Assembly (NCBI GenBank): GCA_026415985.1
Contig: JAOAGA010000080.1
Coordinates: 1-6,490, forward strand
Source: Pseudomonadota bacterium
GTDB taxonomy: Bacteria > CALINM01
Direction of reading: 5' to 3'
DNA: 6,490 nucleotides
Shown here: positions 1,408-6,490 of the stretch, in pieces
How positions within the stretch are numbered: the stretch's first letter is position 1
Layout of the letters: every line of letters starts with the position of its first letter
Made by a program: the position numbers and the translations under genes
Notes under the pieces: generated by a model
What the model saw: only the letters and a program-made list of their open reading frames with translations
The model's database searches: none
Told to the model about the DNA's origin: nothing

Positions 1408-2177
1408 TAACCGAACCTCCCTGTTACATAATCCTCCGTGAGTTTCTTTGAAGGATTGGTAAAGATTTTATCAGTGGTGTCAAACTCTATGAGCTCTCCT
1501 AACATCATAAAACCCGTATAATCTGATATTCTTGCTGCCTGTTGCATATTGTGGGTAACTATTAAAATTGTTACCTTTTCTTTAAGCTCTTCAATTAATT
1601 CCTCAATTCTTCCTGTTGCAATGGGATCCAAAGCAGACGTTGGTTCGTCAAAGAGTAAAATCTCCGGATCCGTTGCAAGAGCCCTTGCTATGCAAAGCCT
1701 TTGTTGCTGTCCGCCAGAAAGTTCAAAGGCTAATTTGTTTAGTTTATCCTTAACCTCATCCCATAATGCAGCACCTTTCAAAGAACGTTCTACTACCTCA
1801 TCAAGTACCTTTTTATTGTTAATACCCCTTACCCTCAACCCATAGGCAATATTTTCATAGATTGTCTTAGGAAAGGGGTTTGGTTTCTGGAATACCATAC
1901 CAATCCTCATCCTAATTTCTATGGGATCTACATGGGGGGAGACAATATTTACCTTATCGGGATATAGGAATATTTCTCCCTCATATCTGTTGTTGGGATA
2001 CAGATCATGCATCCTGTTGAAGCATCTTAAAAAGGTTGTTTTACCGCATCCCGATGGTCCAATTAATGCGGTAACCTTTTTTTCGGCAATTTTTAGATTA
2101 ACATTTTTTAGTGCCTGAACAGTTCCGTACCAAAAATTGAGATTAATAGATTCTGCCTTGATTTTTTCTCCTACCAT
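1407..2177 (-). CDS. pstB: Phosphate ABC transporter ATP-binding protein PstB
   Basis: PstB is the nucleotide-binding subunit. It acts as a homodimer under PstC/PstA at the inner face of the membrane and couples ATP hydrolysis to phosphate import. All ABC ATPase motifs are intact in the 256 residues: Walker [10 protein letters not shown] (40-48), Q-loop Q97 within [16 protein letters not shown], signature LSGGQ (153-157), Walker B ILLFD (173-177) with catalytic E178, D-loop SALD, and switch H209. PstB-specific marks include the N-terminal LNFWYG, the [17 protein letters not shown] stretch after Walker A, the FQKPNPFP loop, and a C-terminal [16 protein letters not shown]. Length is typical. 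The ATG overlaps the end of pstA by seven bases (ATGGTAG), with GAGG upstream. There is no sign of truncation. Confidence 0.98.
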
Positions 2178-3091
2178 TTTATCCTCTTTCTGAATTTGTA
2201 TCTTATGTATATTGCTAAAGCATTCATCGCCAAGGTCATAATAAGAAGAACTATACCCGCTGATGCCGCATTAATATGAAACTCCTTCTGGGGACGGGAA
2301 ACCCAGTTAAACATCTGAATGGGCATGACAGTAAAGGGATCAAAAAGCCATTTAAAGGAGATAAAGGGAAATGTGTCAGTAAAAGGTGATGTAGGCAAAA
2401 AGGCTATGAAGGTTAATGCACCAACGGTAATAATCGGTGCAGTCTCACCGATTGCCCTTGAAAGTCCGATGATTATTCCGGTTAATATCCCCCCTGATGA
2501 ATAGGGTAGTATATGATGTTTTACTGTCTGCCATTTTGTTGCACCAAGGGCATATGAGGCCTCTCTTATTGAATCGGGTATTGCCCTTATTGACTCTCTT
2601 GTTGCCATTATTATCATTGGTAAGATTAATAAACCAAGTGTTAGTCCTCCCGTTAAAATACTCTCTCCAAACTTAAGGGTTTGAACAAATAGCCCCAATG
2701 CCAATAATCCATATATAATTGATGGCACTCCCGCAAGGTTTGATATATTAATCTCAATGAAGTTGGTAAACCAGTTTTTCTTCGCATACTCTTCAAGATA
2801 AATGCCTGCAAGGACACCAACGGGTATTGCAGAAATTGCAGTAACAATCATAACAAGGATTGATCCAACCCATGCAGATAAAATACCCGCTTCTTTCGGA
2901 AAACGGGAAGGGAAGGAAGTGAAAAATTTGTAAGTCAGTCTTGGGTAGCCATCTAAAAAGAGGTCTATAAATAACACACATAAAAGGGCCAAACCAATGA
3001 AAGTTGAGATTAGTCCGATAAAATAAAACAAGAACTCCCATATTTTATTTATTTTTATAACTTCTTTAATATCCTGCTTTTTGATATCCAT
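2171..3091 (-). CDS. pstA: Phosphate ABC transporter permease PstA
   Basis: This is one of the two integral membrane subunits that form the phosphate channel. The 306 residues show about six hydrophobic segments, near 21-46, 70-98, 117-138, 146-164, 199-222 and 277-299. The EAA loop that docks on PstB is at 177-196 ([14 protein letters not shown]). It is followed by [11 protein letters not shown] (209-219), whose Arg212 and Glu216 occupy the conserved RAIGE position implicated in translocation in E. coli Pst. PstA is told from PstC by its place between pstC and pstB and by the [13 protein letters not shown] and GETAPI wording. The start ATG is 22 bases beyond the pstC stop. Its only SD-like stretch, AGGGG, lies 11 bases upstream, a long spacing, so initiation may be weak or partly coupled to pstC. 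Confidence 0.96.
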
Positions 3092-3113: not shown

Positions 3114-4004
3114 TTAATACTTTTCCCTAATCTTGCTTCTTAAAAAGTATCCGATAATATTAAAAAAGAGGGTCATAAAGAATAATACGATCCCCGCTGC
3201 AAAGATTGTTCTGTACTCAAGCGTTCCATGGGGCACGTCTCCTAAACTAACCTGTACTATATAGGATGTTATTGTCTGTACCGGCTCCAGGGGATTAAAG
3301 GTAAAATTGGGCATCATTCCCGCAGCGATTGCAACAACCATAGTCTCGCCAATTGCCCTTGATATCCCGATGATAAACGCTGCTGCAATACCTGAAAAGG
3401 CTGAAGGAATAAGAACCTTAAAGGCGGTCTGAAATTTAGTGGCACCCATGGCATAAGAGCCTTCCCGTATCTGCATAGGAACAGCCTTAAGGGCATCCTC
3501 ACTAACAGAGCTTACATAAGGCACAATCATTATCCCCATAATAATGCCCGGGCTTAGGGCATTGAAGGTGGATAAATCGGGTATGATTTTTTGCAAAATA
3601 GGGGTTAAAAAAAGCAAGGCAAAGTAGCCATAAACTACTGTTGGAACAGCAGCAAGCAACTCAAGAACTGGTTTTACAGTCTCTCTGAATTTATGTGGTG
3701 CATATTCACTTAAATATATTGCGGTAATTAAACCTACCGGAAGAGCAACCAAAAGGGCTATGATAGTGGTTATCAAGGTTCCCAAAACAAGTGGCAATAT
3801 ACCAAACTTCGGTTCCGCAAAAAGGGGCGTCCACTGAGTTCCGAGAAAAAACTCTTTCAACGGGACCTGTTTAAAAAAATCATAGGATTCAAAAAATAGA
3901 ATAAAAATAATAGCAAAGGTTGTAAAAACAGACACAAAAGCACAGAGAAAAAAGGTTATTTCTAAGATTTTTTCTCTAAATTTGACGATTTTTCTATTTT
4001 GCAT
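3114..4004 (-). CDS. pstC: Phosphate ABC transporter permease PstC
   Basis: This is the second channel-forming membrane subunit of the Pst importer, 296 residues (E. coli PstC is about 319). Hydrophobic segments lie near 15-38, 68-98, 112-136, 152-166, 202-230 and 266-289. The PstB-docking EAA loop is EGSYAMGATKFQTAFKVLIP (181-200), followed by GISRAIGETMVVAIAAG (213-229) with Arg216 and Glu220 of the RAIGE motif. GETMVVAIAAGMMPN and the C-terminal RTIFAAGIVLFFMTLFFNI are typical of PstC. The start is fixed: an in-frame TAA lies at 4013-4011, only two codons (TTA, CTC) intervene, and ATG 4004-4002 is the sole start before the first membrane segment. No Shine-Dalgarno precedes it, which fits a near-leaderless transcript from the promoter described upstream. 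It opens the operon, and no pstS lies before it. Confidence 0.96.
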   Translation of the reverse strand: MQNRKIVKFREKILEITFFLCAFVSVFTTFAIIFILFFESYDFFKQVPLKEFFLGTQWTPLFAEPKFGILPLVLGTLITTIIALLVALPVGLITAIYLSEYAPHKFRETVKPVLELLAAVPTVVYGYFALLFLTPILQKIIPDLSTFNALSPGIIMGIMIVPYVSSVSEDALKAVPMQIREGSYAMGATKFQTAFKVLIPSAFSGIAAAFIIGISRAIGETMVVAIAAGMMPNFTFNPLEPVQTITSYIVQVSLGDVPHGTLEYRTIFAAGIVLFFMTLFFNIIGYFLRSKIREKY

Positions 4005-4013
4005 GAGTAATTA

Positions 4014-4019
4014 ATTTTA
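4014..4019 (-). promoter_or_regulatory. Candidate -10 element of the pst operon
   Basis: On the minus strand, TAAAAT (4019-4014) matches the -10 consensus at 5 of 6 positions. It sits about ten bases downstream of the last TTAACA repeat, the geometry of PhoB/PhoP-activated promoters in which the Pho box replaces the -35. Transcription would start near 4007, leaving only about three bases before the pstC ATG. The surrounding DNA is so A/T-rich that the hexamer alone has little weight; its spacing to the repeats is the argument. Confidence 0.45.
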
Positions 4020-4029
4020 ACTTTTCAAT

Positions 4030-4070
4030 TGTTAAAATTTTGTTAAAAATTGGTTAAAAGTGGTTAAAAA
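4030..4070 (-). promoter_or_regulatory. Putative Pho box: four tandem TTAAC(C/A) repeats
   Basis: The minus strand carries TTAACC at 4067-4062 and 4057-4052, then TTAACA at 4046-4041 and 4035-4030, each preceded by a T-run. Spacings are 10, 11 and 11 bases, one helical turn, so all four present on the same face. Response regulators of the PhoB/PhoP type bind such direct repeats (E. coli CTGTCAT every 11 bases; Bacillus TTAACA with about five-base spacers); the two downstream copies match the Bacillus form exactly. The position, 26-66 bases before pstC and directly upstream of a -10-like hexamer, fits activation of pstCAB-phoU under phosphate starvation. A diverged TTAATC at 4091-4086 may be an extra copy. 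Function is inferred. Confidence 0.6.
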
Positions 4071-4099: not shown

Positions 4100-6205
4100 T
4101 TATTTTCTAATCAATAGCCTTGAGGCATTTAGCGCCACGAAGAGAGTGGGCAACTCTTCAAGAGCTGACGCCATAACAGGAGATAAAATACCCACTGATG
4201 CAAGCCCCATTGTTATAATATCCCATGTTACCCCTAAAGCAATGCCCTGTCTAATAACCTTATAGGTAGTTCTACCTATTCTTATTGCGGTAGGGATATG
4301 CAACCAGTTATCCTTCATAAGTGCCACATGGGCAGACTCAATGGCAGTATCTGTCCCAGCCACACCCATTGCAATGCCAACATCTGCCTGAGTAAGTGCG
4401 GGAGCATCATTGACCCCGTCTCCAACCATGCAGACCTTGTAACCCTCTTTCTGAAGGCTCTTAACTATATTTATCTTATCCTCAGGTAACAGATCTGCTC
4501 TCCATTCGGTTATACCAAGCCTTTTTGCTACTGCACAAGCGACCCTTTCATTATCGCCGGTTAACATTATCAGTCTTTTTATGCCAAGTTCCTTTAACTC
4601 CTTTATTGCCCTTTCTACCTCATCCCTTATGCTGTCATAGATGGTGATAACCCCCGCAATTTGAGAATCTACTGTTACAAACAAAACAGTCTGACCTTCT
4701 TTCTCAAGTTCCAAGGTTTTCTCAAGTACAGAATCTGGAATAATAATACCCTGTTCTTTAATAAGCAGTTCGTTTCCTATGGATACCCTTTTATTATCAA
4801 CGACACCCTTAATTCCTTTGCCAATGAGATACTCAAAGCTTTCAGTGGTTATTGGTTCTATCCTTTCTCTTTTTGCCTCTTCTATTATTGCCCTTCCTGC
4901 TGGATGCTCTGAATATGATTCTAAAGATGCACTTAGCCTTAAAACTTCTTCTTTTTTATAACCATTAAAAGTTACAATACCACTAACTTTTGGCGTCCCA
5001 AAGGTAATGGTGCCCGTTTTATCCATTACCAGACAATTAATTTTCGATAACTCTTCAAGATAAAGCCCGCCTTTAATCAGTATCCCTCTTTTTGCCCCGC
5101 TTGCTACGGACGCAACAACACTAAGTGGCGTTGCAAGACCAACCGCACAGGGACATGCAGCAACAAGAACCGCAATAGCATAAATAGCCTTGCCAGAGAT
5201 TAAATAAGTAAGAAAAGCAAAGGCCAACGCCGATGGAAGAAAATAAGAGGTAAATCTGTCAGCAAACTTCTGGACCGGCGCCTTATGAGTCTCAGCCTCC
5301 TCTACAAGCTTAATAATTTTCCCAAGGGTAGTATCTTCACCAACTTTCTTTGCCTCAATCTCCAGATATCCTGAACCATTTATAGTGCCTGAAAACACAG
5401 TTGAACCAACATATTTTTCAACAGGAAGACTCTCACCTGTAATAGTTGATTCATTTACAAAACTTAGACCATTAATTACGACACCATCGACAGGTATTTT
5501 TTCTCCAGGCCTGACTACTACTATATCGCCCACCTTAAGCTCTGAAACATCAACATCCATCTCCTTACCATCAACCTTAATAACAGCCCTTTTAGGAGCA
5601 ATCTCCATTAACTCCTTTATTGCCTTTCTTGACCTTGATACTGTGAACTCCTCTAAATAATGGGCGATATTCATAAAAAATGTTACAAGCATTGAAGCTA
5701 TATACTCACCGATCAGGCCAGCACCAATAATCCCGATACTCATCATAAGGTCTACATTTATCTGCCTTTTTAAAATGCCAAGGACTGCTCTCTTAAAAAT
5801 AGGATAACCACCTAATAAAATAGCTAAAAGAACCATTGGCAAGGGTATTAGATCAATTCCTTTCTTATAGATACCTAAATACTCAAGCCCCAAAAGCAAA
5901 AGACCTGCAATTCCCAACCCAACGATAAAGGCAAGTCTCAGGGTTTCAAAAAGATCATCCCTTTTTGGCTCTGATTTGATATCCTTTCCTTTAACCTTAT
6001 GTCCAAGATTTTCTATTGTTTTTATTAACTTTTCTGGATCTAATCTCTTCTCATCATAGGTTATTACCGCTTTTTCAGAAGTCATCAATATCTTAAGATC
6101 CATTACACCATCAGTACTTTTAAGTACTCTCTCAATTTTGCCTGCACAGGACTGACAGCAAAGCCCCTCAACATTCAATTCAATAGTTTTCATAATCCCT
6201 CTCAC
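4100..6205 (-). CDS. Heavy-metal P1B-type ATPase (probable Zn/Cd-type or Cu exporter)
   Basis: Inner-membrane pump that exports a soft metal cation from the cytoplasm, 701 residues and complete. An N-terminal HMA metal-binding domain (5-72) has GLCCQSC (C16, C17, C20). Eight membrane segments are expected: about 90-111, 119-137, 150-167, 169-186, 319-336, 340-361, 650-672 and 674-694. Motifs: actuator TGE (256-258), membrane CPC (351-353), phosphorylation DKTGT (D395), SEHP (432-435), TGDN (549-552) and GDGVNDAP (595-602). [10 protein letters not shown] looks copper-type, but the M2 region GEYIAS...YLEE looks Zn/Cd-type, and the last helices lack the copper YN and MxxS residues, having W661-D662 and E683-E684. 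The adjacent ArsR-type sensor argues for Zn, Cd, Pb or Co. Start: GTG 6205-6203 overlaps the repressor stop as GTGA; ATG 6193-6191 (residue 5, preceded by GAGG) is an equally plausible start. Confidence 0.93.
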
Positions 6206-6490
6206 TTATCCTCAATATGTCTTAAACCCTCATCAAGGAGATTTTTGATGTGTTTGTCATCAAGAGAATAATAAACAATCTTTCCTTCCCTTCTATACTT
6301 TACAATCCTTCTATCTCTCAATACCCTTAACTGATGAGACACCGCAGACTTTGTTGTACCAAGCAGACTTGCAATATCACAAACACATAACTCATCAAAA
6401 GATAGGGCTAAAATTATCTTTGTCCTCGTGGGATCCCCAAGAACCTTAAAGGTTTCGGCAAGCCTGCTTATAATATAATCAGATTTAATC
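6202..6490 (-). CDS. ArsR/SmtB-family metal-sensing repressor, N-terminus beyond window
   Basis: Partial gene: the last 95 codons and TGA stop (6204-6202) are visible; the start lies past 6490. The product is a small winged-helix dimer of the kind that represses efflux genes and is released from DNA by metal. Visible parts are [15 protein letters not shown] (helix 2 region), the metal box ELCVCD (33-38 of the visible part, two Cys), the recognition helix [18 protein letters not shown] (46-63), the wing [12 protein letters not shown] (65-76), and a last helix carrying D78-x-H80-x10-H91-x2-D94. That last pattern matches the helix-5 Zn site of SmtB/CadC (DxH...HxxE) with Asp for Glu. Having both sites suggests a CadC- or SmtB/ZiaR-like sensor of Zn, Cd or Pb. 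It overlaps the ATPase GTG start by four bases, so the two are probably co-transcribed and autoregulated from a promoter outside the window. Confidence 0.93.

Follow-up and report, generated by a model that had tools for sequence, protein, structure and literature searches.

Winged-helix regulators of the OmpR/PhoB family commonly bind direct repeats of 10 to 11 bp, and the PhoP box of Bacillus subtilis is built from TTAACA-like units. The consensus of the Pho box differs between species (PMC4415409). Cyanobacterial SphR boxes, which lie at pst operons, are tandem CTTAACCT repeats of at least three units with an 11-bp period (an 8-bp unit plus a 3-bp linker), and the Pho boxes of E. coli stand 10 bp upstream of the -10 element (PMC1906773). 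We analyzed a stretch of 6,490 nucleotides (hereafter the window) that makes up the entire contig C140 of a 1.57-Mb, 84%-complete genome (G000) and that carries four TTAAC(C/A) repeats directly before pstCAB-phoU. These repeats most probably form the PhoB operator, that is, the Pho box array, of a PhoB-activated pstCAB-phoU promoter, a reading to which we give a probability of roughly 0.93 on the basis of sequence comparisons.

Four repeats in the gap before pstC

On the minus strand, the main genes of the window run in the order ArsR-type regulator, P-type ATPase, a 95-bp gap, pstC, pstA, pstB, phoU, and a QueG-like ferredoxin-type gene. The phosphate genes, all on this strand, were called with NCBIfam cut-offs: the phosphate ABC transporter permeases pstC (3114–4004; TIGR02138, 284 bits against a cut-off of 196) and pstA (2171–3091; TIGR00974), the phosphate ABC transporter ATPase pstB (1407–2177; TIGR00972), and the phosphate signalling protein phoU (739–1407; TIGR02135), the last three also scoring over their cut-offs. 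Upstream of pstC lies the gene of a heavy-metal P-type ATPase (4100–6205, minus strand; TIGR01525, 613 bits), the end of which bounds the gap. An ArsR/SmtB-type regulator gene (6202–6489) directly precedes and slightly overlaps the ATPase gene, and the two presumably encode a metal-efflux pair.

The gap between the ATPase gene and pstC has 16% GC and holds, on the minus strand, two TTAACC units (unit 1, the distal one, at 4062–4067; unit 2 at 4052–4057) followed by two TTAACA units (unit 3 at 4041–4046; unit 4, the proximal one, at 4030–4035), units 2 to 4 being recovered by pattern search as well as read from the sequence. The successive steps are 10, 11, and 11 bp, the first being one base short, which puts unit 1 a little out of register with the others. 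A -10-like hexamer, TAAAAT (4014–4019, minus strand), begins 10 bp beyond unit 4 and is presumed from its sequence to belong to a PhoB-dependent promoter. This layout is exactly the one described in the original prediction, and it combines two marks of a Pho box, namely, at least two direct-repeat units with an 11-bp period and a position some 10 bp ahead of a phosphate gene's -10 element. Only 9 bases separate TAAAAT (4019–4014) from the pstC ATG (4004–4002), ahead of which we found no Shine-Dalgarno sequence. In the window (4002–4019) and at the loci L030, L034, and L027, pstC has no Shine-Dalgarno sequence, unlike pstS, and a -10-like hexamer ends 6–12 bases before its ATG; the pstC transcript may be leaderless.

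Repeats of this kind could arise by chance and be without function in a gap that is 84% AT, in a genome where TTAAC is a frequent word. When the 95-bp gap was shuffled 20,000 times with its dinucleotides preserved, however, the longest chain was two units, three or four never being reached, and with the period left free between 5 and 20 bp, a chain of three appeared in 1 of 3,000 shuffles and a chain of four in none of 3,000. The pair TTAACN6TTAAC occurs in the whole window only as the two pairs of the pstC gap, even at one mismatch; shuffling the whole window gave at least two one-mismatch matches in 47 of 200 shuffles, a comparison that alone is not significant. The evidence for the array rests on the chain, its position, and its recurrence, and not on the whole-window pair shuffle.

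Recurrence in the genome and in relatives

Pattern searches of the genome found the exact pair TTAACN6TTAAC 10 times in 1.57 Mb, 7 of these matches being within long reading frames. The three noncoding pairs are two at pstC and one on another contig (C95:18187), in the gap between the leftward lapA-phoB-phoR genes and the rightward pstS gene, 48 bp before the pstS ATG (the name lapA is our reading of a short upstream frame, given without a profile search). The genome-wide pair scan proposed in the original prediction thus matches, outside coding sequence, at pst promoters only. A search of all of G000 for three units, with the pattern KTAAYN6KTAAYN6KTAAY, gave a single match, at the pstC array, and its reversed-pattern control gave none. 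A looser pair, TTAAYN6TTAAY, was rejected as a search motif because it is too unspecific, with 51 matches in G000, 76 in G001, and 85 in G002, the latter two counts being near or below the reversed control. The 51 loose pairs of G000, against 34 for the reversed pattern, fit a chance origin, but such an origin is contradicted by the lack of three-unit chains in the shuffled gap, by the confinement of nongenic exact pairs to pst promoters, and by the position and spacing kept in relatives, where the box recurs at pstS (in two genomes) and as arrays in Nitrospirota; we accord it next to no probability.

The pstS gene of G000 lies apart from pstCAB-phoU and adjoins phoB-phoR on another contig (L207, 951–4755), unlike in G001 and several Nitrospirota, where pstS stands directly before pstC. 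A second phoU-pstS-pstC-pstA-like cluster is present on contig C97 of G000 (L023, 738–3079); it has no visible Pho array in the 150 bp upstream, and arrays are likewise absent from the 150 bp upstream of the binding-protein genes on contigs C156 and C112.

The phylum-wide search covered three genomes, all from one family (G000, G001, and G002). In G000 and G002, the 16-mer TTAACAAAAATTTAAC lies 48 bp ahead of pstS; it is also found before pstC in G001, which has three units before pstC (TTAATAAAATCTTAACAAAAATTTAAC) and TTAACAAAAATTTAAT before pstS. We found no close pstC orthologue in G002 (best match 40%), so the pstC box rests on two family genomes and on Nitrospirota. Shuffling of their own 150 bp leaves the two-unit pstS boxes short of significance (p 0.07–0.09), and they count as evidence because they recur. 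Conservation before orthologous operons is seen at pstC and pstS of G001, at pstS of G002, and at pstC or pstS in Nitrospirota. With the array kept in relatives and intergenic exact pairs only at pst, the Pho box that had been predicted for the pst promoter is well supported; the further suggestion that it could define the Pho box of the lineage holds in part, for a phylum represented by three genomes and with pstS boxes that have only two clear units.

Arrays of three or four (T/G)TAA(C/T) units at exact 11-bp steps stand before pstC in Nitrospirota (L030, L033, L034, L036), and three- to four-unit arrays with the same spacing stand before pstS (L028, L034, L036, L039); at L032 and L037, the array lies upstream of pstC inside the 220 bp read. 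The pstC gene of L028, which almost adjoins pstS, has no array before it, the box there standing before pstS, and none was found at L029 and L031 in the 150 bp tested. The pstS genes of L032, L033, and L037 also have none in the 150 bp tested, the array being further upstream in all three. Chains of at least three units occur in 12 of 24 upstream regions of pstS or pstC, against 2 of 47 upstream regions of other frames at the same loci, and the three-unit pattern has 37 matches in six Nitrospirota genomes, where its reversed control has 2; many of the 37 lie at pstC and pstS.

Several Nitrospirota loci have a TATAAT-like hexamer 8–10 bp past the last unit. The place of the window's TAAAAT is occupied by TATAAT at L030, L036, and L037, by TATATT at L027, and by CACAAT at L034. 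This bears on an alternative in which PhoB would act as a repressor, or would serve another promoter, with a perfect TATAAT on the minus strand upstream of the array (4098–4093) as the main -10 element and the array in the leader. A generic promoter scan, however, found no minus-strand sigma-70 -35/-10 pair in the region, and the order that recurs in the relatives is array, 8–10 bp, TATAAT-like hexamer, ATG, which makes this alternative very improbable. The missing pair fits an activator-dependent promoter and is expected where a promoter has no -35 element.

We further find arrays before genes other than pst in Nitrospirota. A small Cys-rich ORF (about 60–70 codons, with a Shine-Dalgarno sequence) follows three-unit Pho arrays at L171, L173, L176, and L195 (genomes G061, G065, G060, and G062, respectively), one example reading MNTGNFKIGEILCPFLNGNLDICDALSSN...YCSTESYDTCPLFLVESL. 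Three scanned copies gave no credible Pfam match, and the ORF is a candidate for an unnamed Pho-regulon protein. Four-unit arrays stand before an operon for a PHP-domain protein and a GT21-type glycosyltransferase (L198, 759–1448, with L195, 1537–2730, in G062; L175, 747–1436, in G063), which possibly serves lipid remodelling when phosphate is limiting.

The PhoB-PhoR pair and a model of control

A PhoB-PhoR pair is encoded on C95 beside pstS. The C95 PhoB has 40% identity to E. coli PhoB, and in the crystal structure of the E. coli protein with DNA, bases are contacted by Thr194, Val197, Arg201, and Arg219 (PMC3973317), all of which are kept in C95 PhoB (T193, V196, R200, and R216). Neither protein reaches its NCBIfam equivalog cut-off (PhoB 227.7 bits against 296.2; PhoR 252.7 against 334.2), which, we infer, is usual far from model organisms; the two best named families of the regulator are PhoB models, and the kinase resembles PnpS/PhoR.

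Direct repeats of 10–11 bp are common targets for winged-helix regulators of the family, and G000 encodes four PF00486 proteins, three of them besides PhoB, so that the array might be the tandem operator of another OmpR/PhoB-family regulator. We consider this extremely unlikely: the regulator whose gene adjoins the second box and pstS is the PhoB-like one, and a PhoR-like kinase comes with it; it is this protein that has PhoB models as its best named families and keeps the four base contacts; and the three remaining regulators have no array within 150 bp upstream.

For the PhoB operator, we infer that PhoB binds it, that phosphate governs it, where transcription starts, and that control is positive. 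Under phosphate shortage, PhoB would be phosphorylated by the PhoR-like kinase from C95, and PhoB monomers would bind head-to-tail, one per 11-bp unit, the four units accommodating two tandem dimers, as with E. coli PhoB. By the same analogy, the proximal dimer, 10 bp before TAAAAT, would recruit sigma-70 RNA polymerase, replacing the -35 element and turning on pstCAB-phoU, while the similar operator in the gap that pstS shares with lapA-phoB-phoR would induce the binding protein, encoded elsewhere in the genome, at the same time. Rather tentatively, in this little-sampled phylum PhoB may read the TTAAC box in a very small core regulon (by TTAAC motif, pstS and pstCAB-phoU only), with a leaderless pstC and a -10 element 9 bases before its ATG, as in some Nitrospirota.

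Unit spelling and comparison with described Pho boxes

The original prediction had regarded the unit spelling as Firmicute-like and odd for a genome that looks Gram-negative. This view finds no support, for cyanobacterial boxes are CTTAACCT repeats and Nitrospirota mix their spellings. The host is not a cyanobacterium, as judged from its nearest PstC relatives. The spelling is not exclusive to Firmicutes, with TTAACC in cyanobacteria and TTAAC among GTAAC and GTAAT units in Nitrospirota, and, since TTAAC is also cyanobacterial and is mixed with other forms in Nitrospirota, nothing is left of the supposed mismatch between a motif of Firmicutes and genes of Gram-negative type. Arrays of the latter combine TTAAC, GTAAC, GTAAT, GTCAT, and GTCAC; GTCAC and GTCAT both occur at L039 and, as far as spelling goes, are a bridge to the E. 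coli CTGTCAT form. We found no published description of a Nitrospirota Pho box in the literature searched.

The pstC array is almost certainly an ordinary control element in an AT-rich spelling, one of a known kind from a lineage that has been little sampled, and it changes nothing in the general understanding of Pho regulation. What it offers is a motif, tested here, with which Pho regulons can be predicted in Nitrospirota and in an uncultured phylum, and a case in which the unit spelling drifts (TTAAC, GTAAC, GTAAT, GTCAC) while the 11-bp spacing and the PhoB base contacts stay.

Compared with the window, the Nitrospirota arrays (L030, L033, L034, L036, L037, and L039) are alike in their 11-bp units and, in several cases, in a hexamer 8–10 bp on, but most of their units start with G (GTAAC, GTAAT), and pstS and pstC are adjacent, whereas they lie apart in the window's genome. 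The PhoP box of Bacillus subtilis shares TTAACA-like units at 11 bp with the window, but this spelling is not specific to Firmicutes, and the relatives of G000 use (T/G)TAA(C/T) with GTCAC forms. The cyanobacterial SphR box has the TTAACC core and the 11-bp period in common with the window; units 1 and 2 fit it closely, unit 1 matching the CTTAACCT-type spelling (PMC1906773), whereas units 3 and 4 end in CA where the SphR box has CC. The E. coli Pho box (pstS, phoA, and others) likewise consists of 11-bp direct repeats before pst genes, about 10 bp from the -10 element, as here, and differs in its units, which are CTGTCAT in E. coli and TTAAC(C/A) in the window.
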